A program made the translations under genes and the position numbers. The notes under the pieces were generated by a model. It was not told the DNA's origin. It was given only the letters and a program-made list of their open reading frames with translations, and did no database searches. Shown here in pieces: positions 2,348 to 57,524 of a stretch of 57,574 nt of DNA (the stretch's first letter is position 1; every line of letters begins with the position of its first letter). Source of the stretch: Duncaniella sp. (GTDB taxonomy: Bacteria; Bacteroidota; Bacteroidia; Bacteroidales; Muribaculaceae); NCBI GenBank assembly GCA_023664955.1, contig JAMPEV010000001.1, forward strand, positions 398,277 to 455,850. Reading direction: 5' to 3'.

Positions 2348-2357
2348 ATTTTTAATT

Positions 2358-3629
2358 CTATTCAGTAGTCACTTCTTGGAATCCTACCAAGCAGTCAAAT
2401 CTACCACCTTGAGGTCGATGATACACCCTCACGTCGTATCTATTGTTCGTCTGATAGAAATCCCCCTCTATATTACCGGTATATCCTTCGGTGTTATCCC
2501 GAAGCACTGTGAGATATTGATAATTATATGACCCTTGCTTAAGAAGCATATCCTTTTCATATCTACCACTCACTCGGTTATACTCCATAGTAGATTCAGG
2601 ATTCATACGGCGTCTCAAAAAATCGCCATCAATCACCACATCCATTTCTCTCAATTCGGGCATCTCTAGTGAGAATTTCACAGTCACATAGTCAGCCTGA
2701 ACATCAGAATCCAGTGCTGACTCTTCCCTGACGATAAATCCTCCGTGCTGAGTCTGGTCATAAACGTATGGAGACCATTTTCGAGGCCGGTCAGTGTCTA
2801 GGATGAATTCATATCCATCAGCTCCGTAGGCAATTTCATTTACGCCAATTCCGGTATATGTCGTGGCGACAGTTTCAAACCTCCGATATTCATTACCGGC
2901 ATCAAAAATCAATTTTGGCAAATGTTCGTATATCAGCGTGCTACCCTCGACGCGCTGAGGAGAGGTCAGAGTCACCTGATTGTCAAGCCTGCCATTTTGA
3001 GTGACAACCACCTTTAAGTCACCAAACGGATTATCAATTTTCAGATTCCTCGTATCGATTGCAATTGAAACCTGTTGATGAGACTTATTTACATCTATAT
3101 CTGTCCGACTTGATACATCCATTCTAATGGAAGTCTGTGGATCAACTACCATAAAGCGTACCTGCAAAATAATATCGTCAGGTTCATCCTCGTCACACAC
3201 TTTCAGCAGATAATTACCGGGCTGAGTGATACGCATCTGCTCATCAGGAAAAGTTATTTTATAGTGTACATAGTGTACTAGTGTAGCTTCCGAGAAGGAA
3301 TAATCCTCTATAATACCTTCATTGAAACCGTTGAGATACTCAGAATCCACAAGTCCATCCGGCTTCCAGTCAGCCCCGCAATGAGTGAGGGAATATCTCA
3401 AGTAGCGATGGGTGTCAGAGAGCTCATCAAATGATATTTCCAATCTTGCAGCCGTATCGCCAATAGTCACTATCGGAGTGGCAAAACAGTCTCCATTCAC
3501 CGATAAGCTGAGTGTCTTGAAATCTGGATGGAAAATGCCCTGCTTCGTGTCGCCCCCGTAAACGGCCAGACAGCCACAAAGCATCAAAAAGCACCATACC
3601 AAACTCCTTATCAGCATTATATCAAACAC
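2358..3629 (-). CDS. Type IX secretion plug-type protein (DUF5103)
   Basis: The 423-residue protein begins with a hydrophobic signal segment (about residues 5-22) and is otherwise beta-rich. Features typical of the DUF5103 / T9SS plug family include IGDTAARLEISFDEL near residue 56, the phrase YRYSLTHCGADW-like at about residue 80, and a C-terminal part with a tandem beta-sandwich ending in YDVRVYHRP. The related Flavobacterium protein plugs the SprA translocon from the periplasmic side. Whether this organism has a full type IX system cannot be judged here. It may be co-transcribed with the DUF3109 gene downstream. The upstream neighbour ung is 24 nt away on the same strand. Confidence 0.75.
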   Translation of the reverse strand: MFDIMLIRSLVWCFLMLCGCLAVYGGDTKQGIFHPDFKTLSLSVNGDCFATPIVTIGDTAARLEISFDELSDTHRYLRYSLTHCGADWKPDGLVDSEYLNGFNEGIIEDYSFSEATLVHYVHYKITFPDEQMRITQPGNYLLKVCDEDEPDDIILQVRFMVVDPQTSIRMDVSSRTDIDVNKSHQQVSIAIDTRNLKIDNPFGDLKVVVTQNGRLDNQVTLTSPQRVEGSTLIYEHLPKLIFDAGNEYRRFETVATTYTGIGVNEIAYGADGYEFILDTDRPRKWSPYVYDQTQHGGFIVREESALDSDVQADYVTVKFSLEMPELREMDVVIDGDFLRRRMNPESTMEYNRVSGRYEKDMLLKQGSYNYQYLTVLRDNTEGYTGNIEGDFYQTNNRYDVRVYHRPQGGRFDCLVGFQEVTTE

Positions 3630-28894: not shown

Positions 28895-30694
28895 ATGACT
28901 GAAGAAGTAAAAAACTCCCCTATCGAGGATTTCGACTGGGAAGCGTATGCAAACGGTGAGACCAAGGGTGAAAAGACCCGCGAAGAGCTCACCAAAACCT
29001 ATGATGAATCGCTCAACACCGTGCGTGACAAAGACGTAATCGAAGGTACCATCATCTCGCTCAACAAGCGTGAAGCAGTGGTTAACATCGGCTACAAGAG
29101 CGACGGCATCATCCCCGTTAGCGAATTCCGCTACAACCCCGACATCAAGGTGGGCGACACCGTAGAGGTTTTCATCGAGAACCAGGAAGACAAGAAGGGC
29201 CAGCTCATCCTTTCTCACCGCAAAGCTCGCGCAGCTCGTTCATGGGATCGCATCAACGAAGCTCTCGAGAAGGACGAAGTAATAAAGGGATTCATCAAGT
29301 GCCGCACAAAGGGTGGTATGATTGTCGATGTATTCGGCATCGAAGCTTTCCTCCCAGGCTCACAAATCGATGTTAAGCCCATCCGCGACTATGACGTATT
29401 CGTTGGCAAGACAATGGAATTCAAAGTCGTTAAAATCAATCAAGAATTTAAGAACGTTGTTGTCAGCCACAAGGCACTCATCGAGGCTGAGCTCGAGCAG
29501 CAGAAGCGCGAAATCATCGCTAAGCTCGAAAAGGGCCAGGTGCTCGAAGGTTCTGTCAAGAATATCACTTCCTACGGTGTGTTCATCGACCTCGGCGGCG
29601 TAGACGGTCTTATCCACATCACTGACCTCTCTTGGGGACGCGTAAGCCATCCCGAAGAAGTGGTACAGCTCGACCAGAAGCTCAACGTGGTTATCCTCGA
29701 TTTCGATGACGAGAAGAAGCGTATCGCCCTCGGTCTCAAGCAGCTCCAGCCCCATCCATGGGATGCCCTAGACGCTAACCTCAAAGTTGGTGACAAGGTT
29801 AAGGGTAAAGTTGTGGTTATGGCTGACTATGGCGCATTCGTTGAAATCGCACCCGGCGTAGAAGGCCTCATCCACGTTAGCGAAATGTCATGGAGCCAGC
29901 ACCTCCGCTCTGCTCAGGACTTCATGAAGGTTGGCGACGAGATCGAAGCCGTTATCCTCACCCTCGACCGCGAGGACCGCAAGATGTCACTCGGCATCAA
30001 GCAGCTCAAGAACGATCCTTGGGAAAATATCGAAACCAAATACCCCGTTGGCAGCAAGCACACTGCTAAAGTACGCAACTTCACTAACTTCGGTGTATTC
30101 GTTGAAATCGAAGAGGGTGTAGACGGTCTTATCCACATCAGCGACCTCTCTTGGACCAAGAAGGTTAAACACCCGTCTGAATTCACTCAGATTGGTGCCG
30201 ACATCGATGTCCAGGTTCTCGAAATCGACAAGGACAACCGTCGTCTGTCACTCGGCCACAAGCAGCTCGAGGAGAATCCTTGGGATGTATTTGAGACAGT
30301 GTTCACCGTTGGTTCAATCCACGAAGGCACTATCATCGAAATGGTAGAGAAGGGCGCAGTTATCGCACTCCCCTACGGCGTGGAAGGCTTCGCTACTCCC
30401 AAGCACCTCGTTAAGGAAGACGGCACTCGCGCACAGGTTGACGAAAAGCTCAACTTCAAGGTTATCGAATTCAACAAGGATAGCAAGCGTATCATCCTTT
30501 CTCACAGCCGCATCTTCGAAGATGAGCAGAAGGGCGAACGCGCTGAAGCAGCTAAGAAGCCGGCTAACAACCGTCGCAACAACAATAACCGTCGCGCTGA
30601 AGAAGCTCCCGCACTCAACGCTCCCCTCGAAAAGACCACTCTCGGTGACCTCGAGGCACTCGCTGAACTCAAGCAGAAACTTTCAGCTAAATAA
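28895..30694 (+). CDS. rpsA: 30S ribosomal protein S1
   Basis: A 599-residue S1, which recruits and unfolds mRNA on the small subunit. It contains six S1/OB RNA-binding repeats of about 70 residues. Repeated cores include NIGYKSDGIIPVSEF, TSYGVFIDLGGVDGLIHITDLSW, DYGAFVEIAPGVEGLIHVSEMSW, NFGVFVEIEEGVDGLIHISDLSW and KGAVIALPYGVEGFATP. An acidic N-terminal stretch (about 1-45) and a basic, Asn/Arg-rich tail (ANNRRNNNNRRAEEAP, about 555-570) frame them. Codon use is strongly biased, as expected for a highly expressed gene. Confidence 0.97.
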   Translation: MTEEVKNSPIEDFDWEAYANGETKGEKTREELTKTYDESLNTVRDKDVIEGTIISLNKREAVVNIGYKSDGIIPVSEFRYNPDIKVGDTVEVFIENQEDKKGQLILSHRKARAARSWDRINEALEKDEVIKGFIKCRTKGGMIVDVFGIEAFLPGSQIDVKPIRDYDVFVGKTMEFKVVKINQEFKNVVVSHKALIEAELEQQKREIIAKLEKGQVLEGSVKNITSYGVFIDLGGVDGLIHITDLSWGRVSHPEEVVQLDQKLNVVILDFDDEKKRIALGLKQLQPHPWDALDANLKVGDKVKGKVVVMADYGAFVEIAPGVEGLIHVSEMSWSQHLRSAQDFMKVGDEIEAVILTLDREDRKMSLGIKQLKNDPWENIETKYPVGSKHTAKVRNFTNFGVFVEIEEGVDGLIHISDLSWTKKVKHPSEFTQIGADIDVQVLEIDKDNRRLSLGHKQLEENPWDVFETVFTVGSIHEGTIIEMVEKGAVIALPYGVEGFATPKHLVKEDGTRAQVDEKLNFKVIEFNKDSKRIILSHSRIFEDEQKGERAEAAKKPANNRRNNNNRRAEEAPALNAPLEKTTLGDLEALAELKQKLSAK

Positions 30695-30885: not shown

Positions 30886-31450
30886 ATGAAGTTACATATC
30901 AAAGAGTCTAAATGGTGTACTTTCGTCTGCGCATAGGAATCAAAATCACTTCGTGGTGCTATACAGGATTGACCGCAACGGGATGCGGTTTTTGATTTCC
31001 GACCCTGCCAAAGGAAAGTACAAACTCTCCCTCAAAGAGTTCTCATCCCATTGGATCACAACAACTTCCAATGGCGAGGAGAAGGGGATTGCCATGTTCT
31101 TTGAGAAGACGGAAGAGTTTGACCGTTTGGACATTCACAGCCAGGGGCAGAAACAGCGGATACTCATAGCCCGGACGGTGTACAAGAATCCCGATTTCAT
31201 ATTCCTCGACGAGGCCACCAATTCGCTCGACGCGAAGAACGAGCGAGCCATCGTGGACAATCTCGCCCAATTCTACCGAGGTCGCACTGTAGTCGTTGTG
31301 GCTCATCGCCTCTCCACCGTCAAAAACGCCGACCAGATCATCGTGGTAGATAGCGGTCGGATAGTGGAAACCGGGACTCACGCATCCCTCATCGACCGCC
31401 GCGGCGCATATTACACCCTCGTCAAAAACCAACTCGAATTAGGTAACTGA
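30886..31450 (+). pseudogene. Remnant of a peptidase-containing ABC transporter
   Basis: The last 165 codons, open from a GTG at 30953, read as two distant pieces of a PCAT joined in frame. The first piece is the end of a C39 peptidase domain: an HFVVLY segment with the catalytic His partly upstream of the GTG, then LISDPAKGK with the catalytic Asp and GIAMFF. The second piece, from residue 63, is the end of the ATPase (QGQKQRILIAR, FIFLDEATNSLD, VVAHRLSTV). About 480 codons carrying the membrane domain and Walker A are missing. Upstream of the GTG the homologous frame continues to about 30930 and then breaks. A separate ATG at 30886 leads only to a 16-codon peptide. The GC content matches the host chromosome rather than the AT-rich cassette that follows. 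Confidence 0.85.
31139..31450 (+). repeat. Left copy of a 312-bp direct repeat
   Basis: Bases 31139-31450 align without gaps to 37181-37492, with 16 differences by manual count. The repeat encodes the last 103 residues of an ABC ATPase. Together the two copies bracket the AT-rich peptide cassette. Confidence 0.93.
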
Positions 31451-31517: not shown

Positions 31518-31547
31518 TTTGACCTTACCTACAAATCTTTAAATTTG
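31518..31547 (+). promoter_or_regulatory. Promoter of the peptide cassette
   Basis: TTTG (31518-31521), an 18-nt spacer and TAAATTTG (31540-31547) form a Bacteroidota promoter. Transcription would begin about 40 nt before the precursor ATG at 31590. Confidence 0.7.
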
Positions 31548-31589
31548 CATCTTCTAACAACACATAACCAACCTAAAATAACATTTACT

Positions 31590-31809
31590 ATGACAAATCT
31601 TTTTTTTGAATCCCATTGGGAAAGAGAATGAGCTTCCAGTTTCCGCATTGGAGCTTCTAATAGCTGGAGATGGAACAGACACACCAATTATTTTTTGTGA
31701 GAAAAACGTATGTCCAGACAATACAGCATCATGCACTGACAACGTTTGCGAACAACATCATGGCGGCGGTTGTGGTGTTAATCGTTGCAAAATTCACATC
31801 AAATTGTAA
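31590..31809 (+). CDS. Cys-rich RiPP precursor peptide (frame broken at T8, or TTG start)
   Basis: A small peptide gene just before a radical SAM enzyme. From TTG 31606 the open frame gives 67 residues beginning NPIGKENELPVSALELL. The better-placed ATG at 31590 reads MTNLFFESHWERE and stops, because a run of eight T (31600-31607) puts it out of frame. With seven T the product would open MTNLFLNPIGKENEL and run to the same end. The leader-like part ends near LLIAGDG. The core holds six cysteines arranged as three CxxNxC motifs: CEKNVC, CTDNVC and CGVNRC, with a HHGGG spacer. Such repeats suit thioether formation by the neighbouring enzyme. I know no named family for it. Whether it is expressed from TTG, by slippage, or is broken is open. 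Confidence 0.65.
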
Positions 31810-31830
31810 AAGTACAAACTAAAATCCACT

Positions 31831-31876
31831 ATCAAGTTAATAGCACCTAACTTCAAGTGCTATTAACTTGATTTAA
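31831..31876 (+). terminator. Perfect 16-bp hairpin between precursor and radical SAM gene
   Basis: ATCAAGTTAATAGCAC (31831-31846) pairs perfectly with GTGCTATTAACTTGAT (31857-31872) across a 10-nt loop, and TTAAAT follows. It starts 22 nt after the precursor stop and ends just before the radical SAM start. A partial terminator here would give far more precursor than enzyme, as in many RiPP operons. Confidence 0.75.
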
Positions 31877-31887
31877 ATATAAATTAT

Positions 31888-33207
31888 ATGTATCAGATCT
31901 CTCGATATACATTCATCTTTAATCGAGACAAACACAATTTCATATATAATTCTCGAATAAATAACTTCTACGAGATTCCTGACGCTGCTTTGTGCCTTTT
32001 AGATCAACTATCCAATCTCAAACTCTCAGAATGCACAAATGAAGAAATAGAATTTTTGGAGTCGCTTATTCGAAATAAAATCATTGTGGAAAAAGATGAG
32101 GATGATTTATATTTTGATGAACTAAATGTGCTTTACAACATTCAAGCAAACTCTACTTCCACATTAAATTTCACAATTGTTCCTACGGTATCATGCAATT
32201 TACGCTGCCCCTATTGTTTTGAAGAATCCAAACCGAAAGGTTTTATGTCAGATGAAGTAATAAATAACATTGTTGACTTTATTAAACATAAACATTGGAC
32301 AAACAAATATAGCATATCGTGGTTTGGAGGCGAACCATTGCTTGCAATCAGTCAGATAGAAAAAACATTGGAGTTATTGCACAGAGAAAAAGATTTGGAA
32401 CTCACGCATCATTCAATAATCACTAACGGCACCCTTTTAGGACGTAAAGCAATTGAGGTCTTTGAAAAATACCCATTAGACTCTATCCAGATAACACTGG
32501 ATGGTTTTAAGGAATCACATGATAGAAAACGGCATGATGAGAGAAATCAAGGGACTTTTGATAAGATAATAAATAATGTGAAAAATTTCATAAAATGCTC
32601 TCCGAATACTTTTGTGTCTTTTAGAATAAATGTTGATAATTCCAACTATAGAGAATACGTAACAACGCATAAATATTTGACAGAGATGTTCAAGAACGAC
32701 AATGTTGGTATATATGCCGGTATACTTAGAGCTAATAAAGGTTGTGAGTCAGACACTTTTTTCACTTCGAGAGATCACTTAAAGTTCAATGATTATCTGC
32801 TTGAGAATAAAATCCCATTACAAAATTTTCCGCAAAAATGTTCAAAGGGCTGCACTGCTACACAAATTGCAAGCTTCGTAGTTGGACCAAGAGGAGAATT
32901 ATATATGTGTTGGGAGCATGTAGGTAAAGAAGATAAGATTATTGGGTACATAGACAATAAGAGAATTGGTAATTTCTGCGGATTGAGCAATTATATGCTA
33001 TATGGGCACTGTTATAGCGATTCAAAATGTAAAAAATGTGGGTTTGTGCCGATTTGTTCAGGCGGATGTCCTGATAAGAGAATTGAAAATAAGTCTAATG
33101 GGGGAAAGTACGATTTATGTTCAATCTATCACGAAGAAGATGGGCAAGCTTTGAATGATTTACTTTATAAATTTTATCAATCACAACAAGAAGAATTAAA
33201 AAAATAA
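31888..33207 (+). CDS. Radical SAM/SPASM peptide maturase
   Basis: A 439-residue radical SAM enzyme. The cluster-binding CNLRCPYC gives Cys103, Cys107 and Cys110 in the CxxxCxxC form. WFGGEPLL (about 152-159) is the GGEP SAM-binding motif, and IQITLDG is the following core strand. An N-terminal region of about 95 residues (YTFIFNRDKHNFIYNS) looks like a peptide-recognition module. The C-terminal SPASM region (about 313-415) has many cysteines, including CSKGC, MCWEH, CKKCGFVPICSGGC and DLC, for auxiliary iron-sulfur clusters. It probably installs carbon-sulfur or related crosslinks in the Cys-rich peptide encoded 78 nt upstream. Base composition is far more AT-rich than flanking housekeeping genes, which suggests transfer. 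Confidence 0.9.
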   Translation: MYQISRYTFIFNRDKHNFIYNSRINNFYEIPDAALCLLDQLSNLKLSECTNEEIEFLESLIRNKIIVEKDEDDLYFDELNVLYNIQANSTSTLNFTIVPTVSCNLRCPYCFEESKPKGFMSDEVINNIVDFIKHKHWTNKYSISWFGGEPLLAISQIEKTLELLHREKDLELTHHSIITNGTLLGRKAIEVFEKYPLDSIQITLDGFKESHDRKRHDERNQGTFDKIINNVKNFIKCSPNTFVSFRINVDNSNYREYVTTHKYLTEMFKNDNVGIYAGILRANKGCESDTFFTSRDHLKFNDYLLENKIPLQNFPQKCSKGCTATQIASFVVGPRGELYMCWEHVGKEDKIIGYIDNKRIGNFCGLSNYMLYGHCYSDSKCKKCGFVPICSGGCPDKRIENKSNGGKYDLCSIYHEEDGQALNDLLYKFYQSQQEELKK

Positions 33208-33219
33208 CGACCACTAATC

Positions 33220-35300
33220 ATGAGGAATTGGAGTCTTGTTTCTGTTATTATCGTATTACTTTCTATGTGCACGATGCCATGTTTTTCAAGCACACCAACC
33301 GACACTCTTTCCCTCTCTCATTTTAATCTGGGCGAGGTGATAGTAACGGCTCGTAATTACGCAGTTCTATCTGATGGTATTTCAGTAATTCCAACCTCAC
33401 GAGAAAAGAATTCCTCGACATCAGGTTACTCTTTGATAGAACGTATGCAAATACCAATTTTAGTAATTAATCCGATTGAAAATAAGATAACACTAAATAC
33501 TGGAGAAGAAGTCACATATTTCATCAACGGTGTTCAATCAACTATAACAGAAGTAAAGTCAATTGTGCCGAAAGAAATAAAAAGAGTTGAGATTTTACGA
33601 CGACCAATTGATCCAAAATATGAAGGCGCATCAGCCGTTATAAACTTCATAGTGCATAATTCAACATATGGAGGATATGTGACGGCGGATGCTAATCAAT
33701 CTTTTCCCTATCTTACAGGTGACTATTCAGTCTATAGTAAATATTCTACCAGCCGTTGGACAATCCAGGCCATTGGCGGCATAAATTACACTAATTCATC
33801 GGGCGATTCCACTATCCAAATCTCAAAATACTCATTTCCCGACATTTCACCAATAATAATGGAGGATGTGTCAATAGAGAAAAACTTTAAAAAACGACAA
33901 GCATACGGAGCATTGGAGGCAGTGAGACGCTCTACAAGCGGAAGCACTTTAGCAATAAAGACAGGGGTGCGTTATTTCAATAACCCAGAACTTTCGACAT
34001 GCAACAATACAGTATATAATGGTGATGTCAGCCTAAACAATCGTTTAAATGAAATGCGTCGTAGTGTGCCATTTGTTACCGCATCTTATCTATGGACGCT
34101 TACATCCTCTTCACAATTTTTTATGAAAGGAGGACTGTCCGGGGTGTCAAGTAAATCAAAAAACATATATTCTTCTAATGAAAAAAAATTTCTAACAATA
34201 TCCGAGAGAATGTTATTACACCCGAACTGAAGTTTTCGTACATGAAAAACTTTTCAAGCGACAATGAATTATCAGTATCTTTTAATAGCAAAATTTCAAG
34301 GTACATCACTAATTATAGCGGCTCAATTATCTCACATCAAAAGTTACTATATCAAGATTATGCAATGTCGGCACAGTGGCGATATATGTTCCAAAATAAT
34401 TGGATGATGCAATTAATGGCTAATCTGCCGATGTCTTTAACACGAGTCAATAATAATCGGACCATTCATGATATTTACCCTGGATTTTCCGGCTATTTTA
34501 CTGGAAATTTTAGTATAAAAAATTCTATTACACTCTTCATCAACCATGCAAGAGATTCTAAAATACTTACTTCATATAATAATTTGGAAAGAATTGACAC
34601 AGAATACGAGGGCGTAGAAGGGAATGTCAACCTTAAGCCATCGAGTAGATATAATGTATCTACATCTTATACATGGCTACATTCAAACAAATTTCAGCTT
34701 AGTTTTGCAATGAACTACGAGAGAGTGGCTAATGATTGTGTGGAAAATTATGAATATAAGGATAACGTTATTTATAATAAATTGGTCAACAGTGGGAATT
34801 TAAATTCCTTAGAGACAAGTCTATCATCGACAATAAAGCTTTTTTCTGGAAAATTTAATATTTCGCCAAGGATTTCCATAACGAAAACTCATCATTCGGG
34901 GATTTATAAGGTAAATTATTGGCAACCTTACGCGTCTCTATCACTAACATATATTCCATCCAACTCATTCTATTTAACTGGGTTTGTTTCTACTCCTGCA
35001 GGAAAAATATATTATAATTCAAGCGGAGGTTATGAAGAGTCACATAATGCATATCTAAAACTTCAAGGTGGCTATATAAAGAAAAATTTTAGTCTATCAT
35101 TGTCAATAACACCATTGTACGATTCTGACTATGGTGTATATTATAAACAAAGTAGAATTGTGGAGTTTAAAAGGCACTCATGGCGTAAAATTGGTGAAAG
35201 GAGATTTACATTATCTTTAAAATATACAATTGATTATGGCAAACCAGTCTCAAAAAATAAATTGTATATCGAGAACATGAATACAACATCCGTTAGATGA
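33220..35300 (+). pseudogene. TonB-receptor-like outer membrane barrel, split by a frameshift at A8
   Basis: Two frames together encode one barrel of about 690 residues. The first part (33220-34230) has a signal peptide (MRNWSLVSVIIVLLSMC and on), then a plug-like domain (LGEVIVTARNYAVL, TYFINGVQSTITEVKSI, IKRVEILRRP) and early strands. It ends prematurely after LTISERMLLHPN. Restoring one base in the eight-A run at 34181-34188 makes the first part continue as ISNNIRENVITPELKFSYM into the second part (34242-35300), which carries the remaining strands. Similar barrels accompany peptide-export operons in Bacteroidota and may serve as the outer-membrane exit or receptor. The stop overlaps the exporter start by 4 nt. 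Phase variation, true decay or a sequencing error could explain the break. Confidence 0.8.
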
Positions 35301-37492
35301 AGACTAAATTCCAATTTATTCGACAATATGACTCTATGCAGTGCGGAGCTGCTTCACTAACCATGGTATGTGACATTTTTGGGAAGAAAATATCAATGGC
35401 TGAAGCAGAATCATTATGTGGCGCGGGGAAGAATGGAGTTTCAATGCTGGCACTTAAAAATGCCTCCAATTCTCTTGGTCTGGAGAATGTTGTAATGACG
35501 ACAACAACTGATGAGTTAAAATCAAGTCCACTCCCAGCCATCCTTTTTTGGGAAAATAAGCACTTTGTAGTGCTGTATCAAATCTCTTTGAAAAAAAACA
35601 TATTTTACATAGCAGACCCTGCAAAAGGTCTTGTGAAATACTCCAAAGAAGAATTTGAAAGAAGGTGGATAAATGATGAGTCACCAACTGGACACAAAGG
35701 AATTGCCATGTTCTTTAACCCTACAAACGATTTTATTCGTTCAACAAACAAAAAAGACACTAAAAAAAGATCCTTGAAATTTCTCTATGATTATTTTATA
35801 GAGTATCATAAATATTTTGCCATCATTGCCCTTGGATTAATTGTCGGCAGTCTCCTTCAGTTAATAATGCCTTTTTTGACTCAGGCAATAGTCGACATTG
35901 GAATAAAGCATAACAACCTTGGACTCATTTGGTTAATTCTCATTGGAGAGCTAATGATAGTAATTGGACGAACATCTACAGATTTTATTCGACGATGGCT
36001 TATCCTTCACATATCTATGAGAATTAATGTTTCGTTAGTAAGCGATTTCATCATTAAGCTATTGAAGCTTCCCATGTCCTTTTTCGAATCTAAGAAAACG
36101 GGGGATTTGCTTCAGAGGATGGGTGACCATAATCGAGTCCAAATGTTTCTAACTAATCAGACTCTTAGCGTCGCCTTTACCTTCGTTAATTTTTTTATAT
36201 TTGGAATTGTACTTTTCATGTACAATATCATTGTATTTCTCATATATTTTATTGGAAGCATAATATATTGTGTTTGGATAATAACATTCTTAAATAAAAG
36301 GAAGATAATTGATTATGAATTATTTGACCAACAAGCTCGTAATAATAATAAGACATACCAGCTAATAACATGTATGCAGGAGATTAAGCTTCAGAATTGT
36401 GAACAGCGTAGGCGCTGGGAATGGGAAAATGTTCAAGCTGATACCTTTGTTATTCAGATGAAAAATTTGAAAATGCAACAGACACAAGAAGCAGGCTCCA
36501 TATTTATTAACGAGATAAAAAATATCTTGATAACTGTTTTTGCCGCTGCCGCAGTAATCGAGGGGAATATGACTCTTGGAGCCATGTTAGCTGTTCAATT
36601 TATCGTAGGACAATTAAATTCACCACTTGAACAACTCATGATTTTTATATATTCTATTCAGGACACTTTGTTATCACTGGAGAGGATTAAAAATATACAT
36701 GAGATTGAAAATGAGGATGTTCCCAATAAACAGAAGAATATTTTAGACGGCAACAAAAGTATAAAAATAATAAATGTTTCATTTAAATATAATACTCATG
36801 CTATTAATAATACCTTGGAGAACATCAGCATAGACATCCCCGCAGGAACTTTTACTGCGATTGTTGGTACTTCAGGTAGTGGTAAATCCACTCTGATTAA
36901 ATTGCTGCTTGGATATTACAAGGTTTCACAAGGTAAAATCCTCATAGGAGATGAAGACATAAATAGTTACAATTTAAAATGGTGGCGTACTCAGTGTGGC
37001 GTAGTAATGCAAGATGGTGTTATATTCTCTGAATCAATTGCGCAGAATATAGCCGTTTCTGATGGAGACATAAATTTACAACAAGTAGAAAATGCTGCAA
37101 AGGCTGTGAATATACATGATTTCATAATGACATTACCTCTAAAATACAATACTATAATAGGATCTGAAGGCGTGGGGTTGAGCCAGGGGCAGAAACAGCG
37201 CATACTCATAGCCCGGGCGGTGTACAAGAATCCCGATTTCATATTCCTCGACGAGGCCACCAATTCGCTCGACGCAAAGAACGAGCGAGCCATTGTGGAC
37301 AATCTCGCCCAGTTCTACCAAGGTCGCACCGTGGTCGTGGTGGCTCATCGCCTCTCCACCGTCAAAAACGCCGACCAGATCATAGTGGTAGATGGCGGAC
37401 GGATAGTGGAAACCGGGACTCACGCTTCCCTCATCGACCGTCGAGGCGCATATTACACCCTCGTCAAAAACCAACTCGAATTAGGCAACTGA
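35297..37492 (+). CDS. Peptidase-containing ABC exporter (PCAT) with hybrid 3' end
   Basis: A 731-residue exporter that cuts the leader from a peptide and pumps it across the inner membrane. The C39 peptidase domain (1 to about 140) has Gln10, catalytic Cys16 in SMQCGAAS, His89 in NKHFVVLY and Asp107 in ADPAKG. Six membrane helices span about 165-460. The ATPase has Walker A GTSGSGKST at 524-532, a signature LSQGQKQR, Walker B FIFLDEATNSLD and the H-loop His in VVAHRLSTV. All active residues are present. Codons up to about 628 are AT-rich like the cassette, while the last 103 are GC-rich and near-identical to the remnant at 31139-31450. The gene is therefore a recombinant. Its ATG overlaps the barrel gene's stop. 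Confidence 0.94.
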   Translation: MKTKFQFIRQYDSMQCGAASLTMVCDIFGKKISMAEAESLCGAGKNGVSMLALKNASNSLGLENVVMTTTTDELKSSPLPAILFWENKHFVVLYQISLKKNIFYIADPAKGLVKYSKEEFERRWINDESPTGHKGIAMFFNPTNDFIRSTNKKDTKKRSLKFLYDYFIEYHKYFAIIALGLIVGSLLQLIMPFLTQAIVDIGIKHNNLGLIWLILIGELMIVIGRTSTDFIRRWLILHISMRINVSLVSDFIIKLLKLPMSFFESKKTGDLLQRMGDHNRVQMFLTNQTLSVAFTFVNFFIFGIVLFMYNIIVFLIYFIGSIIYCVWIITFLNKRKIIDYELFDQQARNNNKTYQLITCMQEIKLQNCEQRRRWEWENVQADTFVIQMKNLKMQQTQEAGSIFINEIKNILITVFAAAAVIEGNMTLGAMLAVQFIVGQLNSPLEQLMIFIYSIQDTLLSLERIKNIHEIENEDVPNKQKNILDGNKSIKIINVSFKYNTHAINNTLENISIDIPAGTFTAIVGTSGSGKSTLIKLLLGYYKVSQGKILIGDEDINSYNLKWWRTQCGVVMQDGVIFSESIAQNIAVSDGDINLQQVENAAKAVNIHDFIMTLPLKYNTIIGSEGVGLSQGQKQRILIARAVYKNPDFIFLDEATNSLDAKNERAIVDNLAQFYQGRTVVVVAHRLSTVKNADQIIVVDGGRIVETGTHASLIDRRGAYYTLVKNQLELGN
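37181..37492 (+). repeat. Right copy of the 312-bp direct repeat
   Basis: It encodes the PCAT residues from about 629 to the stop and matches 31139-31450 without gaps (16 differences). The switch from AT-rich to GC-rich sequence falls at its left edge. Confidence 0.93.
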
Positions 37493-37599
37493 TTAACAAC
37501 AGAATAAGAGGACTTTGAAAACTATCTTTAGAACTCACAGAACTCTGAGAGCTCTGAAAATCCGCAATTCCGGCATAGCCTGTTCCCATCGGACGCGCC

Positions 37600-37735
37600 A
37601 GTGGCACGTCCCTACGACTAAAAACAATGGCACGTCCGAACTAAGAACCTGTGGCACGTCCACGACTAAAACTCAGTGGCACGTCCGAACTAAGAACCAG
37701 TGGTGCGTCCACGACTAAAAACCAGTGGCATGTCC
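37600..37735. repeat. Six ~25-bp tandem repeats
   Basis: Six units built on AGTGGCACGTCC followed by an alternating CGAACTAAGAACC or ACGACTAAAA tail start at 37600, 37625, 37650, 37675, 37699 and 37724. A frame through them is low complexity and not a believable gene. They lie between the exporter and the small HlyD-like gene. Confidence 0.85.
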
Positions 37736-37768: not shown

Positions 37769-37957
37769 ATGAATCATGACAAAATAGAACTTCGTTCAGA
37801 AAAAGTGCGGCAACTCATCGGCGAAATCCCGCCTTCATTAGTGAGGTGGGGCATAGCCATAATCGCCACAGTGTTCCTGGCCCTCCTCGCCGACGTAATC
37901 TTCATCCCCTACCCCTACTCTGAAGGCGAATCAATCCTTCAGCATCTGTTGAGCTAA
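37769..37957 (+). CDS. Short single-pass protein like an HlyD-family N-terminus
   Basis: A 62-residue ORF. The start MNHDKIELRSEKVRQLIGEI followed by PPSLVRWGIAIIATVFLALLADVIF closely recalls the N-terminal segment and membrane anchor of Bacteroidota HlyD-type membrane fusion proteins that work with PCATs. Here the frame stops just after the helix. It may be a truncated fusion protein or a separate small membrane protein of the same export system. The position downstream of the exporter supports a link. Its base composition is host-like, so it probably belonged to the resident transporter locus rather than the AT-rich cassette. Confidence 0.6.
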   Translation: MNHDKIELRSEKVRQLIGEIPPSLVRWGIAIIATVFLALLADVIFIPYPYSEGESILQHLLS

Positions 37958-38271: not shown

Positions 38272-40548
38272 ATGGCAAAAGTAACGAAAAAAATGGCGTT
38301 GGACTACCACCAGTATCCGCGTCCCGGCAAAACAGAAGTAATACCAACCAAACCATACGCCACTCAGGCCGATCTCGCTTTGGCATACTCGCCGGGCGTT
38401 GCTTATCCGTGTCTTGAAATACAGGAACATCCCGAAGATGCCTACAAGTACACTGACAAGGGCAATCTCGTTGCCGTAATCTCTAACGGCACCGCTGTGC
38501 TCGGTCTCGGTAACATCGGCGCACTTGCAGGCAAGCCGGTTATGGAAGGTAAAGCCTTGCTTTTCAAGATATTCGCAGGTCTTGACTGCTTTGACATTGA
38601 GGTTAACGAAAAAGACCCTGAAAAATTCATCCAAATCGTCAAAGCTCTGACACCCACATTCGGAGGAATCAACCTTGAGGACATCAAGGCCCCGGAATGT
38701 TTTGAAATCGAGCAGCGTCTGAAAGCTGAATGCGACATTCCAGTGATGCACGATGACCAGCATGGCACCGCCATAATCTCGGCCGCCGCAATGCTAAACG
38801 CCATCGAAATCCAGGGGAAAAAGATTGAAGATGTGCGCTTAGTGGTCAACGGAGCAGGAGCTGCAGCAGTGTCATGCACAAAGCTTTACATCGCCCTCGG
38901 CATTAAGAAAGAGAACGTGGTAATGTGTGATAGCAAGGGCGTAATCACCACCCGTCGCACCGACCTCAACCCACAGAAGGCACAATTCGCCACCTCACGC
39001 GACATCACCACACTTGCTGAGGCGATGAAGGATGCCGATGTGTTCCTCGGTCTATCAGTGAAGGATGTTGTGACACCTGAGATGGTGAAGTCAATGGCTC
39101 CGCGTCCCATCGTGTTCGCCCTCGCCAACCCCGACCCTGAAATCACTTACGAAAAGGCAAAAGCTGCCCGTCCTGACCTCATCATGGGTACAGGTCGTTC
39201 CGACTATCCCAACCAGATTAACAACGTCTTAGGATTCCCTTACATCTTCCGCGGTGCTCTTGACTGTGGTGCGACAGAAATAAACGAGACAATGAAAATC
39301 TACGCGGTACGCGCCATTGCAGAAATCGCCAAGAAACCCGTCCCTCCTGTAGTAAACGCCGCTTATAACCGTACAAATCTTAAATTCGGTCCTGAATATA
39401 TCATTCCTACCCCATTTGACCCCCGCTTGCTCACCGCCGTTTCACCCGCAGTGGCCAAGGGTGCAATGGACAGTGGAGTGGCCCGCCGCCCCATTGAGGA
39501 TTGGGACGCTTACGCTGAAAAGCTGCGCCAACTCAAGGGCAACGACCGCAAGTTCACCCGTCGCCTAAACGAGGCCGCGCGCACCAACCCGAAGCGCGTA
39601 GTATTCGCCGAAGCCAATACCGACAATATGCTTCGAGCTGCCGCACTCGCCGCTGCCGATGGTCTTTGCACACCTATACTCCTCGGCAACGAAGAGATGA
39701 TAGCAAAGCGTGCTATGCGGTTAGGTATAAACATTGACGGCATCGAAATCGTCAATCTCCGCCACGACCGCGAAGCCGCACGCCGCGAACGCTATGCCTA
39801 CATGCTCACCACCAAGCGTCAGCGCCAAGGCGAGAACTTCGAAAGCGCACTTGACAAGATGTTTGACCGCAACTACTTCGGTATGATGATGGTAGAAACT
39901 GGTGATGCTGACGCATTTATCGCAGGAACACGTGCTGCCAATAATCCAACCGGTGAAATTGCGCGTGAAGTTATCGGCATAAAAGATGGATACAACCACT
40001 TTGCCACCATGCACGTCATGGAGACCACCAAAGGCACTTACTTCCTCGCCGACACTATGATTAATGGTAATGCCGATGAAGAAACGCTCCTCGACGTGGC
40101 TCGTCTATCGGCCGACGCTGTGAAATTTTTCGCTCACGATCCCGTTATGGCATTGGTGTCATACTCAAATTTCGGCTCCAACAAAGAGGAAGAGTGCGTG
40201 AAAGTCCACAACGTTGTCGAAAAGATGCACCAGATGTATCCTGACCTCCCAGTAGATGGCGAAATGCAGATGAACTATGCCCTTAACCGTCCTGTGCGCG
40301 ACAAAGTTTATCCTTTCACACGTCTCTATGGCAAGGATGTAAACACCATCGTGTTCCCTAACCTCAGCGCAGCTAACGCATCTTACCGTCTGATGCTTGA
40401 GATGGGTGTTGGCGAGACTATAGGTCCAATCCAGATGGGATTGAAGAAACCTATCCACTTCATCAACGTTGATGCAGAAGTGCGTGACATCCTCAACCTC
40501 GTAGCAATTGCCGTAATCGACGCTGCTGTGATGGATAATAAAAAGTAA
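38272..40548 (+). CDS. maeB: NADP-dependent malic enzyme with phosphotransacetylase-like domain
   Basis: A 758-residue two-domain malic enzyme. The N-terminal part (about 1-430) is the catalytic malic domain, with the opening YHQYPRPGKTEV, the substrate/metal region MHDDQHGTAIISAAAMLNA and a Rossmann motif VNGAGAAAVSC. The C-terminal half (about 430-758) resembles phosphotransacetylase (FAEANTDNMLRAAALAAADG, VANPTGEIA-like NNPTGEIA) and is thought to sense acetyl-CoA rather than catalyse. It decarboxylates malate to pyruvate with NADPH formation. Length and order match MaeB. It ends at a good terminator. Confidence 0.96.
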   Translation: MAKVTKKMALDYHQYPRPGKTEVIPTKPYATQADLALAYSPGVAYPCLEIQEHPEDAYKYTDKGNLVAVISNGTAVLGLGNIGALAGKPVMEGKALLFKIFAGLDCFDIEVNEKDPEKFIQIVKALTPTFGGINLEDIKAPECFEIEQRLKAECDIPVMHDDQHGTAIISAAAMLNAIEIQGKKIEDVRLVVNGAGAAAVSCTKLYIALGIKKENVVMCDSKGVITTRRTDLNPQKAQFATSRDITTLAEAMKDADVFLGLSVKDVVTPEMVKSMAPRPIVFALANPDPEITYEKAKAARPDLIMGTGRSDYPNQINNVLGFPYIFRGALDCGATEINETMKIYAVRAIAEIAKKPVPPVVNAAYNRTNLKFGPEYIIPTPFDPRLLTAVSPAVAKGAMDSGVARRPIEDWDAYAEKLRQLKGNDRKFTRRLNEAARTNPKRVVFAEANTDNMLRAAALAAADGLCTPILLGNEEMIAKRAMRLGINIDGIEIVNLRHDREAARRERYAYMLTTKRQRQGENFESALDKMFDRNYFGMMMVETGDADAFIAGTRAANNPTGEIAREVIGIKDGYNHFATMHVMETTKGTYFLADTMINGNADEETLLDVARLSADAVKFFAHDPVMALVSYSNFGSNKEEECVKVHNVVEKMHQMYPDLPVDGEMQMNYALNRPVRDKVYPFTRLYGKDVNTIVFPNLSAANASYRLMLEMGVGETIGPIQMGLKKPIHFINVDAEVRDILNLVAIAVIDAAVMDNKK

Positions 40549-48288: not shown

Positions 48289-49525
48289 ATGAAAAATTTC
48301 TCTCATCACTATTACCATGTATTGTATTGTTTTCATGTCAGGAAGATGTTGTTTTAGAGGACATTAACGAAAATACTAAAGAATCGACGTCAACATCCCA
48401 TGTAATCACTATTGAACAGGCTTTAGCCTCTCTAAACAGTTACTTTTCTTCCGGTGAAAACATGGTAAAATCACGAAACGCAGAATCCCCTCTGATTACT
48501 GAAATTTACCCAGTTAAAGCAAATGAACAAATTTCGAGTCGCTCAGCTGATGCTGAAAATGGGGATATAGTCTATGTAGCTAATTTTGCGAATGAACAGG
48601 GATATGCAATCCTGGCAGCTGATGACCGTATATCAGAGAAAGTCATTGCTGTTACAGAGTCTGGCAATATGAATCCGCAAATAATGCGTTCATCCGGCAA
48701 TGATAGGGAGGAAGATGAGGATATCCGCCATATATTTGACAATTATCCTACCACGGAACCGGGATTTTTCACTATTGATGGTTGTGGCGATGAACTATTC
48801 ATGAATCCTAATACCGTCTCATTGTACGACGAAAACGAAGATGACACACTTATTGGAGATTTCGATGAAGATGATGACACTGGGGCAGAGGATGAAAATG
48901 GCAATCCAATATTGACAAATCAATCAGATAAATCCCTCATGGAGTATATTGCCGGTTTATGTATCGACTATGCCATAAATGAAATAAATGGAGATGGGAA
49001 TGGAAGCGATGATGGTGGCACATCTGATGAAGATGACGACGACCCGAATGGTGGCGATCCACAAGTTCCCGGAAGCGGAGATACCGGTAATTTTATGCAG
49101 GCACTTTTACTTTCCCAAATAAAGTAACTTCATATATGCGTCGTATCGGTATAAGTAATTCTCATAGCAAAGGTTATAAATTCACATTGGTGACCGATAT
49201 GCTTGATAAAAATAGCCCTCTTATCATATACTCTGTCCCAGGGATTAATATTTTCAAAGCTCATGCATGGAATCTTGATGGCTATAAGGTTCGTACAAGA
49301 GAGGTTACGGTGAAAAAATACAAGGACAATGCTCTATTCGAAACCATCATAAAGCAAGAAAATTCCGAAATGGTACATTGTGACTTTGGCTGGGGCGGAT
49401 CTGGTAACGGCTATTATGTATCCGGCGTTTTTAAGGTGAATAAGGGTGAGTTAGATGGCACAAAGGCCGACCATAGTACAAATTATAACCATTTGTTGAA
49501 AGTAATCACCTACGATAAACTATAG
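48289..49525 (+). pseudogene. Degenerate C10 (streptopain-type) peptidase
   Basis: From ATG 48289 the frame shifts almost at once: with one extra A in the run at 48292-48296 the gene would open MKKFLSSLLPCIVLFSCQED, a lipoprotein signal. The body frame then encodes a propeptide-like Spi region (YVANFANEQGYAILAADDRI) and an unusual acidic, Gly-rich stretch (about 48800-49080), ending LLLSQIK with a stop. A second frame, 49136-49525, resumes with the C-terminal peptidase part: the histidine loop KAHAWNLDGYKVRTRE and MVHCDFGWGGSGNGYYV. The segment with the catalytic cysteine is absent, so the protein cannot be an active protease. At least two lesions are present. Confidence 0.8.
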
Positions 49526-56160: not shown

Positions 56161-57524
56161 ATGAAAAACTTGTTTAGAAAAGTGCAACTTATGTTGATTG
56201 TCGCAATTGTGGCAATGACCAACTCTTCATGCACACAAGTTGAGGAGCCGAGCCTCCAGACTGAGGACAAAACGGTTGTCTCAAAATTCGAGAACCAGCT
56301 CCGCAACTATCTCATGTTAAATTCACAATCGGTCAAGTCAAGAAACTTTTCAAAATCCCTACCTTGACTCCTTACATTTATGAGGGAGACACGGTCATGT
56401 ACATCGTACAATCACCGGAGGGATGGGAACTCATTGCATCTGACAAAAGAGTCCCAATGTCAATAATGAAGGGAGAGGAAAAGTCTTTTGACATGAATAC
56501 ACTTAATCTCAATATGAAGGATTACATTCTTTCGATAGCTAAACAGATTCATGAGGTTAAGTCGGAAAATTTAGATATTCCGGAGGACGCTTCTTGGAGC
56601 TGGATGTCTATGCAGGAGGATGAGGGAATAATGCCGTTAAGCGAGATTCCTGATTACGAGCATGGAGAATGAGTTCTAATCGAAATTATAGATCACGGAA
56701 TTACCGTTGACGATAAACCTCATATAATCAAGACCGAATGGGGGCAAGATTGGCCATGGAACATATACATGCCATATATTGATGGTTCAAATAACCAATG
56801 GCCGGCTGGATGTGTTACAGTCGCAGTAGGTCAATTCGCTTACTTCCTTCACTATAGAGATGGACTGCCAATGTATGCTAAAACTGAAGCGACATACAAC
56901 CCAAGCACAAATAAATTTTCATTTTCAAACCCAAGCGCAACCGCCTGGGATAAGATGGCAAAGAATCTGTATGAATTAGGCGATATTGTTACTGCTGCCT
57001 ATCTTGGAGATTTGGCATCTTCATTAAGCCCTTCCTATAATATAAAATTTGGAACAGGCATTGAATTAAATGACGCAGTTGAAAAATATCTCAATAATGA
57101 AGCAGCATCAAAATATAAACTCGTTAATTACGACAACTCTACAACATCATTTATACTTAATCAACTAAAGTCAAATGAACCGGTAGTTGTTAGGGGCGCC
57201 CGATATGATGATGAGTCAGGAAAAAATATAGGACATGCATTCATCATTGACTCATACAGAACTGAAACCACAAATAAAGAGTATGTTTATGGATGGGAAG
57301 GTCCGACTATGAGTGGCGCTGATCCTAATACGTATAATGAAGATGGAACCATTGACGAGTATGGAATACAAAATCGCGTCAAACGAAGTTCTACAGATAC
57401 GTATTTCCGTATGAATTGGGGATATTCAGGTGCAAATAATAGCAATTTGTGTCAAGCTAATTACTGGAATATTAGCTCTGACAGACAGTATAACATAAAT
57501 CGTCAAATAGTAGTTAAAAAATAA
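56161..57524 (+). pseudogene. C10 (streptopain-type) cysteine peptidase, two lesions
   Basis: From ATG 56161 the protein starts as a lipoprotein (MKNLFRKVQLMLIVAIVAMT then NSSCTQ). After about 65 codons it runs out of frame; one extra A in the four-A run at 56352-56355 would join it as NFSKIPTLTPYIYEGDTVMY to the next frame. That frame has a TGA at 56670-56672 where HGE-stop-VLIEI suggests a former Trp codon. Beyond it the catalytic domain is open to 57524 and keeps the active residues: PAGCVTVAVGQFAYF with the cysteine, GHAFIIDSYRTE with the histidine and YFRMNWGYSGANN. The decay looks recent, or the stops are sequencing errors. When intact it would be a surface or periplasmic protease beside the SusC/D pair. 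Confidence 0.82.

Follow-up and report, generated by a model that had tools for sequence, protein, structure and literature searches.

Organization of the locus

The stretch of DNA analysed here, referred to as the window, comprises 57,574 nt from Duncaniella sp. (Muribaculaceae; assembly GCA_023664955.1, contig JAMPEV010000001.1, forward strand 398,277-455,850). Within it, all on the plus strand, lie in order a promoter-like site, a Cys-rich peptide, a hairpin, a radical SAM (rSAM)/SPASM enzyme, a plug-and-barrel outer-membrane protein and a C39-peptidase ABC exporter (PCAT) (Table 1). A set composed of a short precursor, an rSAM/SPASM enzyme, an outer-membrane protein, a PCAT and a one-helix membrane protein recurs in relatives, and the probable product of this small gene cassette of a gut bacterium is an exported peptide whose cysteines are crosslinked. 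The tight or overlapping gene borders described in the original prediction were borne out, with 12 bp separating the rSAM and barrel genes and a 4-bp overlap between the barrel and PCAT genes; that listing of the neighbourhood was nevertheless incomplete, having left out a degenerate PCAT upstream and a 62-aa gene downstream.

Table 1. Features of the cassette and its borders (window positions)
Feature	Position	Strand	Basis
Degenerate PCAT remnant, middle missing	30953-31450	+	Pfam C39 and ABC_tran pieces
312-bp direct repeat, left copy (PCAT 3' end)	31139-31450	+	296/312 identical to right copy
Promoter-like site, Bacteroidota-type, TTTG-N18-TAAATTTG (TTTG-N18-TAnnTTTG)	31518-31547	+	Motif match
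T8 run, frame change in precursor leader	31600-31607	+	Sequence
Readable part of precursor, leader end plus core (67 codons, then stop)	31606-31809	+	Four intact homologous precursors
Perfect 16-bp hairpin, 3' of precursor gene	31831-31846/31857-31872	+	
Radical SAM/SPASM peptide maturase, 439 aa	31888-33207	+	Pfam Radical_SAM 76.9 bits
N-terminal part of outer-membrane protein, with signal-like start and a plug-like domain seen by eye	33220-34230	+	Homologous to relatives' intact proteins
A8 run, barrel gene frame change at or near	34181-34188	+	Open frames and tblastn with intact homologues switch
Outer-membrane protein, barrel part	34242-35300	+	Pfam OMP_b-brl_3 37.2 bits, cut-off 27
Mosaic C39-peptidase ABC exporter (PCAT) of 731 aa, frame intact	35297-37492	+	Pfam C39, ABC_membrane, ABC_tran above cut-offs
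312-bp direct repeat, right copy (PCAT 3' end)	37181-37492	+	
62-aa single-helix membrane protein, HlyD-type N-terminal anchor-like	37769-37957	+	Profile matches, L157 similarity

The predicted promoter fits the Bacteroidota consensus, and 12 such sites were observed in the window against 1.3 expected from shuffles. Equally sound was the claim of a 16-bp hairpin, which folds with a z of -5.9 (equally good folds in 0/200 shuffles) and is likely a transcript stabiliser or partial terminator. By raw count, inverted repeats lie 3' of the precursor in four of five homologous loci examined. At locus L072 the repeat is still 3' of the precursor, although that precursor lies after the rSAM gene.

The precursor peptide and its frame

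The Cys-rich peptide predicted from the window, with units CEKNVC, CTDNVC and CGVNRC, was confirmed as an open reading frame. Its core begins at 31696 and contains six cysteines, in CEKN, CPDN, CTDN, CEQH, CGVN and CKIH. The upstream ATG, at 31590, lies in a different frame, the break falling at the T8 run. Intact GG-leader peptides are found in four relatives, the enzymes of which are 41-43% identical, and all three CxxNxC units align, such that ten columns are invariant among the five precursors (C31, N34, C36, C43, N46, C48, G54, C56, N59 and C61). The window leader ends in AG, while those of the four homologues end in GG.

That the peptide is broken at its T8 run was foreseen, but it is not the only broken gene, as the barrel gene is also split, at or near an A8 run. 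The window holds three A/T runs of eight, two of which are these, and each break reflects either sequencing error or recent decay. It is possible, if doubtful, that both frames are lost in the window genome and that nothing is made; the two breaks, the AG leader and the PCAT remnant at the same site fit such decay. Against it, both breaks occur at or near 8-base runs, which are prone to indel errors; the frames of enzyme and PCAT remain open; and the copies of the 312-bp repeat at the PCAT 3' end differ chiefly at third codon positions (13 of 16 differences). Decay here would moreover not count against the system of the relatives, which carry intact copies.

A mosaic exporter and its short companion

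The exporter gene was correctly identified in the original prediction and is mosaic: its GC content is 0.347, then 0.554 across the last 312 bp. In the upstream remnant the end of a C39 domain runs directly into the final 103 codons of an ATP-binding domain and its stop; it matches Pfam C39 over profile positions 91-122 (20.6 bits, cut-off 22) and ABC_tran over positions 110-137, and shares 97% identity with the C-terminal end of the PCAT encoded downstream. This mosaic structure, together with the degenerate PCAT upstream, suggests that the AT-rich cassette arrived through recombination within the 3' end of a PCAT gene already present.

The gene for the 62-aa protein follows the PCAT after 276 bp in the window and after a few bases, or with overlap, in most relatives. 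No match of its own was found for this protein in Pfam or NCBIfam; its profile finds a counterpart behind 22 of 23 distinct PCATs of the related group, or 14 of 15 once the PCATs that went into the profile are set aside. Twelve distant ABC transporters left 1.3 kb or more of sequence behind them, and none of these gave a hit. In L157 a longer ORF of HlyD type (TIGR01843, E 2e-8), truncated where the record stops, begins with a segment sharing 43% identity with the protein. A complete HlyD-type fusion protein was considered and rejected, as the protein ends at 62 aa and has no periplasmic biotinyl-lipoyl/coiled-coil part.

With regard to the outer-membrane protein, the N-terminal part matches Pfam Plug at E 0.03, under the cut-off, and for the intact proteins of L072-L075, L042, L044 and L047 Pfam yields nothing at E<=0.01.

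The maturase and its relatives

As predicted, the maturase carries C103/C107/C110, and these residues are invariant in five aligned enzymes, as are seven SPASM cysteines (C322, C341, C381, C384, C390, C394 and C411). The best solved relative is 5wgg, which we take to be the ranthipeptide synthase CteB, and which is nearer than SkfB among solved structures. The original prediction proposed a check against RiPP family models, and its view of an unassigned system held: no NCBIfam model reaches its cut-off with the precursors, and the enzyme and its relatives fall far under the cut-offs of the best 25 of 70 matched models. The top three for the window maturase are TIGR04463 (187 bits, cut-off 525), Clo7bot (180, cut-off 600) and CefB (168, cut-off 600).

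Homologous enzymes (E<=1e-50) occur in 28 of 397 family genomes, and the window maturase belongs to a clade of seven enzymes with 100/100 support, the other six of which score 181-213 bits against TIGR04463 and likewise miss its cut-off of 525. The expectation that homologous loci would carry CxxNxC peptides holds for five of the seven clade enzymes, beside which lie precursors with three to four such units, but not for L076 and L099, nor for the wider enzyme family, which has other Cys cores. Where loci were read with longer flanks, a PCAT is present in the stretch at 14 of 20 (at L039 only as a 326-aa piece) and was not seen at six. In two of these six, L040 and L050, the locus runs up to the end of the contig; in L034 and L035 a PCAT is present elsewhere in the genome.

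A residue bias three positions after cysteine

Asn stands at +3 in all three C-x4-C pairs of the window precursor, a result matched by 11 of 20,000 shuffles, and in 17 of 19 such pairs across the clade, D and F each occupying one of the others. The initial reading of CxxNxC as the modified unit is right insofar as the unit recurs at homologous loci; the rule that emerges is instead the residue at i+3 of each Cys. This residue is N, H, D, F or Y at 40 of 44 cysteines in the five clade precursors (permutation maximum 23) and at 6/6 in the window precursor (1/4,000 permutations). In the wider set the proportion is 100/162 (0/4,000 permutations) before, and 127/222 (0/3,000 shuffles) after, 12 dropped peptides were restored to give peptides from 34 other relatives. 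Composition at +3, taken without a chosen residue set, gives z 17.5 and 21.3 and is the strongest offset tested in both sets. Among 291 mechanically collected Cys-rich ORFs, including the window precursor, no excess is seen at +3 (298 vs 300.9), though these controls carry a bias of their own (+1 composition z 14.3; set excess at +5, 6/1,000). Several relatives depart from the rule (L124 0/6, L014 1/6, L127 0/3, L105 5/16, L157 3/7), and the wider set also holds 19 G and 12 L at +3; such a mixture of N, H, D, F and Y, with G and L, does not resemble a single kind of acceptor. As most cysteines have a partner-like residue at i+3, the bias points to a bonding rule open to testing.

Were only three links formed, one Cys-Asn thioether per CxxNxC unit with the other cysteines free or in disulfides, the Asn count in clade pairs and the invariant Asn columns would be accounted for. 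This reading is unlikely, however, in that the second Cys of each unit likewise has N, H, F or D at +3 (window CPDN, CEQH, CKIH; L002 CQEH, CRVH, CDVH; L008 CGSF, CVTF, CQTD), and the bias is kept at other Cys spacings, as in L099 (mostly every sixth residue) and L106 (every fifth). A metallophore, in which Cys and N/H/D at i+3 bind metal, the rSAM enzyme makes one other change and a TonB-type barrel re-imports the loaded peptide, is improbable: His and Asp do occupy 9 of 44 clade +3 positions and the outer-membrane protein has, by eye, a plug-and-barrel look, but the poor metal ligands N, F and Y occupy 31 of 44, and inspection by eye of the ORFs flanked by rpsA and the malic-enzyme gene showed none resembling a metal-uptake system. 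We also give little credence to a sactipeptide-type product, with Cys sulfur joined to alpha carbons, possibly in nested hairpins instead of i to i+3. Related SPASM enzymes do form S-C-alpha links, and the account in PMC8172795 includes Cys-Asn alpha links in thurincin H and ruminococcin C; the window enzyme is nevertheless nearer 5wgg than SkfB, and a local i+3 rule fits short local rings rather than long hairpins.

Comparison with known systems

Clo7bot and CefA peptides were not used to find the i+3 rule, and the same residue set was applied to them. In a Paraclostridium cluster of nine tandem precursors (seven annotated Clo7bot, TIGR04334, and two hypothetical peptides), the set is found at 40 of 59 cysteines (31/45 without near-copies; 0/4,000), with a further excess at +7 (28/46; 1/4,000). 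That cluster differs from the window cassette in lacking a double-Gly leader, in an ABC transporter without a C39 label and in its Firmicutes host, and its annotated Clo7bot enzyme, L155, scores 727 bits against the Clo7bot model. CefA of Methylomagnum has the set at 16 of 28 cysteines (0/4,000), though strict CefA repeats are biased at most offsets. CefA resembles the window precursor in its CxxN/DxC units but its cysteines recur at every fifth position with no six-residue spacers, and the CefA model NF038108 (cut-off 30) is matched by neither the window precursor nor the four clade precursors; for the enzyme, the CefB model is NF038107. The claim that no named class has a CxxNxC core was not supported, as the distant relative L106 has CGGNAC units and passes NF038108 at 53 bits, with N, D or Y at +3 of 9/12 cysteines. 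No description of the chemistry of Clo7bot, CefA or TIGR04463-type genes was found in the open-licence literature searched; NCBI models label all three as RiPP genes.

Like the ranthipeptides (PapA/PapB freyrasin, CteA/CteB thermocellin and streptococcal Cys-Asn peptides), which are made by rSAM maturases acting on Cys motifs, the window system places a repeated-Cys precursor beside an rSAM/SPASM enzyme. The streptococcal peptides have Asn before Cys and so differ in spacing from the window precursor. PapA has C-x3-D (i+4) where the window has C-x2-X (i+3), and the maturase scores 129 bits against the PapB family model NF047865 (cut-off 340). S-C-beta links of the Cys-Asp and Cys-Asn kinds are known from ranthipeptides (PMC9413430, PMC8172795, PMC11002830), including Cys-Asp links made by PapB (PMC9413430) and Cys-Asn links in streptococcal peptides (PMC11002830).

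The pairing of a PCAT with a neighbouring outer-membrane protein gene, part of the system put forward as undescribed, proved to have precedents. As described in PMC10352776, BGC6-9 combine a PCAT and an outer-membrane protein with no membrane fusion protein (MFP) identified and with precursors mostly bearing a GG motif; BGC6-8 pair rSAM with YcaO, and BGC9 has LanM in place of rSAM. The Itf cluster, from the corresponding account in PMC11002830, has an rSAM enzyme, a C39 ABC transporter and a TonB-dependent transporter, and its product bears a Trp-Ile C-C link and an amidine. Clusters of rSAM, PCAT and outer-membrane protein are already published, and the RiPP-type cassette matches this kind: it has precursor, rSAM enzyme, PCAT and outer-membrane protein, no full MFP gene within the cluster, and a leader with AG, not GG. 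It differs from BGC6-9 and Itf in its Cys-rich core, its short fusion-protein-like anchor after the PCAT and the lack of any further enzyme gene seen in ORFs between rpsA and the malic-enzyme gene.

Proposed pathway and implications

The explanation we favour, and consider somewhat probable, is a RiPP cassette with leader-guided i+3 thioethers, export by PCAT and anchor, and outer-membrane passage. The N-terminal ~95 residues of the enzyme would bind the leader, and a 5'-deoxyadenosyl radical would take hydrogen from residue i+3 (N, H, D, F or Y) after each Cys, the sulfur of which would then bond to the i+3 carbon, most likely C-beta. It follows from such a bond that each CxxX unit would form one thioether ring (-2 Da), giving up to six rings, not three. 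The short protein, serving as the anchor of a fusion protein that lacks its head, would assist the PCAT, which would cut after the Gly pair and export the core to the periplasm, from which the outer-membrane protein would pass it out, or else take up a cargo complex. The most likely targets of the peptide are neighbouring bacteria, though it may instead have a metal or signalling role.

More tentatively, the rSAM/SPASM enzymes of the clade, the wider Bacteroidales, Clo7bot and CefB might share one chemistry, joining Cys to any i+3 residue to form chains of four-residue thioether rings, with Bacteroidales export by a PCAT whose fusion protein is cut to an anchor. For Clo7bot, CefA and TIGR04463-type genes, the positional rule predicts, in a way open to testing, how large the rings are and how many form, and His, Tyr or Phe acceptors, if true, would widen known thioether chemistry. 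PMC10352776 raises two possibilities for Bacteroidales clusters that have a PCAT and an outer-membrane protein but no MFP: either transport proceeds by a different mechanism, or an MFP escaped notice. The short protein, a conserved companion of this PCAT type, may answer that puzzle, for which it provides a concrete candidate. Finally, the mosaic PCAT suggests a route by which such cassettes move among gut Bacteroidales.

The enzyme clade

In a tree of 42 enzymes, the radical SAM/SPASM enzyme of the window falls within a clade of seven with a support of 100/100; excluded from this tree were the partial sequences at loci L006, L112 and L115, loci L107 and L108 (no enzyme passing the filter) and L029 (wrong ORF), while at the clade-like locus L120 (genome G857) the stretch starts inside the enzyme gene and no precursor was seen. 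The seven SPASM cysteines and the CxxxCxxC motif are invariant among five aligned enzymes. Of 397 genomes in the family, 28 encode a homologue (E<=1e-50), and a five-row profile detected one in 18 of 393 genomes of the order (E<=1e-60); a single-protein query against genome contigs returned no relative. The five nearest named relatives are encoded by MAGs labelled Muribaculum, Muribaculaceae, Porphyromonadaceae and Prevotella, and a PCAT lies within the stretch at 14 of the 20 loci read with longer flanks.

Among the best 25 of 70 matched NCBIfam models, none scored above its own cut-off (TIGR04463, 187 bits vs. 525; Clo7bot, 180 vs. 600; CefB, 168 vs. 600), and identity of the system as Clo7bot, CefA/B, TIGR04463 or PapA/B was therefore rejected. 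In the six remaining enzymes of the clade, TIGR04463 scores range from 181 to 213 bits; an annotated Clo7bot enzyme reaches 727 bits with its own model. NF038108 gave one weak match in 395 genomes of the class (locus L154), while NF038107 matched nothing in 99 genomes of the order, where no control matched either, and nothing above its cut-off in 60 family genomes of genome G727. The nearest solved structures are 5wgg, which we take to be CteB, and anaerobic sulfatase maturases.

Relatives of the enzyme also occur on virus-collection and plasmid records. Two virus-collection contigs, IMGVR_UViG_3300028591_004768 (L122) and IMGVR_UViG_3300037249_000985 (L123), carry radical SAM relatives of 34% and 31% identity, respectively, next to several small CxxC/CxxCP proteins and to ORFs that by eye resemble GIY-YIG endonucleases. 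Small plasmids of 3.3-11.5 kb (L157, L158, L160) carry further relatives: L157 (NZ_OY725789.1), plasmid 44 of Parabacteroides distasonis, encodes a double-Gly Cys-rich peptide together with an HlyD-type ORF; on the two Sarcina sp. JB2 plasmids, L158 and L160, a transporter gene adjoins the radical SAM gene.

The residue three positions after each cysteine

Three to four CxxNxC units per peptide, with a period of approximately 12 residues, are found in five of the seven clade members, while the remaining two (L076 and L099) possess other Cys cores; conservation of this motif across homologous loci, as envisaged in the original prediction, thus extends to most of the clade and not to all of it. 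The invariant core columns are C31, N34, C36, C43, N46, C48, G54, C56, N59 and C61, and Asn stands at +3 in 17 of 19 C-x4-C pairs (shuffling mean 2.7, maximum 9 in 20,000). When offsets were listed, however, it was the position +3 from each Cys that stood out, rather than the spacing of pairs, and CxxNxC itself was consequently abandoned as the core motif. Specifically, the +3 units of the window precursor read CEKN, CPDN, CTDN, CEQH, CGVN and CKIH, and the residue at +3 is N, D, H, F, Y or W for 40 of the clade's 44 Cys and for 100 of 162 in 22 other precursors. In the relative L073 (genome G055), whose intact precursor and enzyme genes lie at 1337-1600 and 1743-3089, a fitting residue stands at +3 of 9 of the 10 Cys of the precursor.

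Because this residue set was picked after the peptides had been seen, the test was run anew on relative entropy, free of any set, and +3 was the highest offset in both the clade (z 17.5) and the wider set (z 21.3); peptides outside the discovery set served as a further check. The first count of the wider set omits loci without a four-Cys ORF near the enzyme in the scan (among them L005, L015, L023, L028 and L102), as well as L021 (a near copy of L020), L100, L105 (four peptides), L107 (three), L127, the second L019 peptide and L157, with L106 tallied separately. Once twelve of the omitted peptides were returned in a second count, 127 of 222 Cys carried the set at +3 (0 of 3,000 permutations, which count related peptides as independent).

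In addition, nine peptides (seven annotated, two hypothetical) of a Clo7bot cluster on a Paraclostridium plasmid give 40 of 59 at +3, or 31 of 45 without near-copies (each 0 of 4,000), and display a second excess at +7. CefA of Methylomagnum gives 16 of 28 (0 of 4,000). This 679-aa protein, encoded on a Methylomagnum ishizawai plasmid (L156:247-2286), has by eye a long N-terminal part with repeats, after which D, N or E stands at +3 of 17 of its 28 Cys.

No excess at +3 was found in the Parabacteroides plasmid peptide (L157, 3 of 7) or in 291 mechanically chosen Cys-rich control ORFs, whose composition is biased at +1 and in which the set is in excess at +5; these ORFs were filtered against GG-leader precursors, and the window precursor that was retained, with possible others, can only raise the control. 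Exceptions to the rule occur at loci L124 (0/6), L127 (0/3), L014 (1/6) and L105 (5/16). As a positive control, CX3D peptides were sought beside Paenibacillus relatives and none was convincing, so the offset method stands without a control peptide of known structure.

Cassette layout and gene condition

The source genome (2.18 Mb, 82.7% complete) carries the window on its contig C11. Between rpsA and a malic-enzyme gene, the + strand encodes in order the precursor, the radical SAM/SPASM enzyme, an outer-membrane protein, the PCAT and a short membrane protein, preceded by a Bacteroidota-type promoter-like site. A 16-bp hairpin lies 3' of the precursor gene, and inverted repeats follow the precursor gene at four of five homologous loci examined. 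Since these repeats track the precursor gene even at the one locus where it lies downstream of the enzyme gene, they would fit a role in stabilising the precursor message or in partly terminating it; an Rfam scan returned tRNAs only.

Features in and around the cassette
Feature	Position	Remark
rpsA	28895-30694	named by eye
Degenerate PCAT	30953-31450	contains one 312-bp copy
T8 run	31600-31607	break in precursor
A8 run	34181-34188	barrel gene split at or near it
PCAT	35297-37492	contains the other 312-bp copy
Repeat array	37598-37735	~25/49-bp repeats, GTGGCACGTCC-like units, between PCAT and short gene
62-aa protein	37769-37957	after PCAT; one helix (by eye)
Malic-enzyme gene	38272-40548	named by eye
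Peptidase C10 (streptopain-type)	48327-49525	Spi inhibitor I69 domain; split over two ORFs in different frames
Peptidase C10 (streptopain-type)	56769-57524	

While the enzyme and PCAT frames are open, the upstream ATG of the precursor is out of frame and the barrel gene is split, the breaks falling at or near two of the window's three A/T runs of eight. Sequencing error, slippage or decay would each account for them; intact copies of the broken genes are present in relatives.

The PCAT gene is a mosaic, with a GC content of 34.7% up to the ABC signature and 55.4% in its last 312 bp. That this step is a usual PCAT feature was rejected, as none comparable exists in 13 other PCATs (window +0.207 vs. 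-0.074 to +0.075). The last 312 bp share 95% identity with the end of the degenerate PCAT. Most differences between the two copies fall at third codon positions, so selection probably acted on both until recent times. The short downstream gene has a GC content of 49%, and rpsA and the malic-enzyme gene 51%. Most likely, an AT-rich cassette was imported through recombination within a resident PCAT. The two copies form a direct repeat flanking the AT-rich cassette. A sampled PCAT of the genus was rejected as source of the 312-bp block, the best match outside this genome being 75%.

A conserved RiPP site upstream of the malic-enzyme gene in the genus was likewise rejected: in 20 genus stretches (L143, L144 and L146 shorter than 2.7 kb), tblastn at 1e-5 gave no radical SAM match, and its hits were a single distant ABC match in L141 (28%) and a single distant outer-membrane protein in L128. 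The latter (L128:6270-8813, genome G002) is of the same kind as that of the window, lies just upstream of the malic-enzyme gene and is 32% identical to the N-terminal part of the window's outer-membrane protein; its stretch holds neither a radical SAM gene nor a PCAT.

A short membrane protein after the PCAT

The 62-aa protein, whose gene lies 276 bp downstream of the PCAT beyond the array of short repeats, matched no Pfam or NCBIfam model. A profile built from eight such proteins matches directly after 22 of 23 distinct related PCATs (>=46% identity), including 14 of 15 not used in building it, and after none of 12 distant ABC transporters that have 1.3 kb or more of sequence behind them; at the sole exception, L047, a short hydrophobic ORF occupies the same place. 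Another match of the profile is the start of the longer L157 ORF, which across the anchor has 43% identity with the window protein. This ORF, cut by the record end, resembles HlyD-type adaptors (TIGR01843, below cut-off at E 2e-8); the 62-aa protein thus resembles a membrane fusion protein of which only the anchor is left. Excerpts of one paper describe a PCAT and an outer-membrane protein with no membrane fusion protein identified in BGC6-9, and ask why (PMC10352776).

Proposed mechanism and relation to known systems

PCATs remove leaders, and outer-membrane proteins of this kind provide passage; from this family knowledge, the window PCAT would remove the leader and the product would pass through the outer-membrane protein, export and uptake both being possible. 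The barrel part of the latter reaches OMP_b-brl_3, with plug-like positions visible by eye in the alignment, while the Pfam Plug model was not reached and seven intact homologues matched no Pfam family. In the simplest reading, one thioether ring per Cys would link Cys i to residue i+3, giving up to six in the window peptide. PapB, which forms Cys-Asp links at C-x3-D (PMC9413430, in excerpt), and the Cys-Asn S-C-beta links of streptococci (PMC11002830, in excerpt) are precedents in which Asn or Asp is the acceptor; a link to His, Tyr or Phe at +3 would be less familiar, and these residues might instead bind the enzyme without reacting.

Given that the excerpted sources describe Bacteroidales clusters with a PCAT and an outer-membrane protein and no membrane fusion protein (PMC10352776), and the Itf cluster with a radical SAM enzyme, YcaO, a C39 exporter and a TonB-dependent transporter (PMC11002830), the cassette architecture is already known, and thioether classes have been described (PMC8172795, PMC9413430, in excerpt). 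The precursor family and the enzyme clade, together with the i+3 rule, were not found described in the open-licence PMC literature; within the same literature, no paper was found for CxxNxC with radical SAM, 'Cys-every-fifth' or 'Clo7bot'. Relative to the original prediction, the analysis yields a sharper rule (i+3) and one more gene, that of the short membrane protein, and the system is judged a real variant of the radical SAM thioether-type RiPPs, broken in this assembly.
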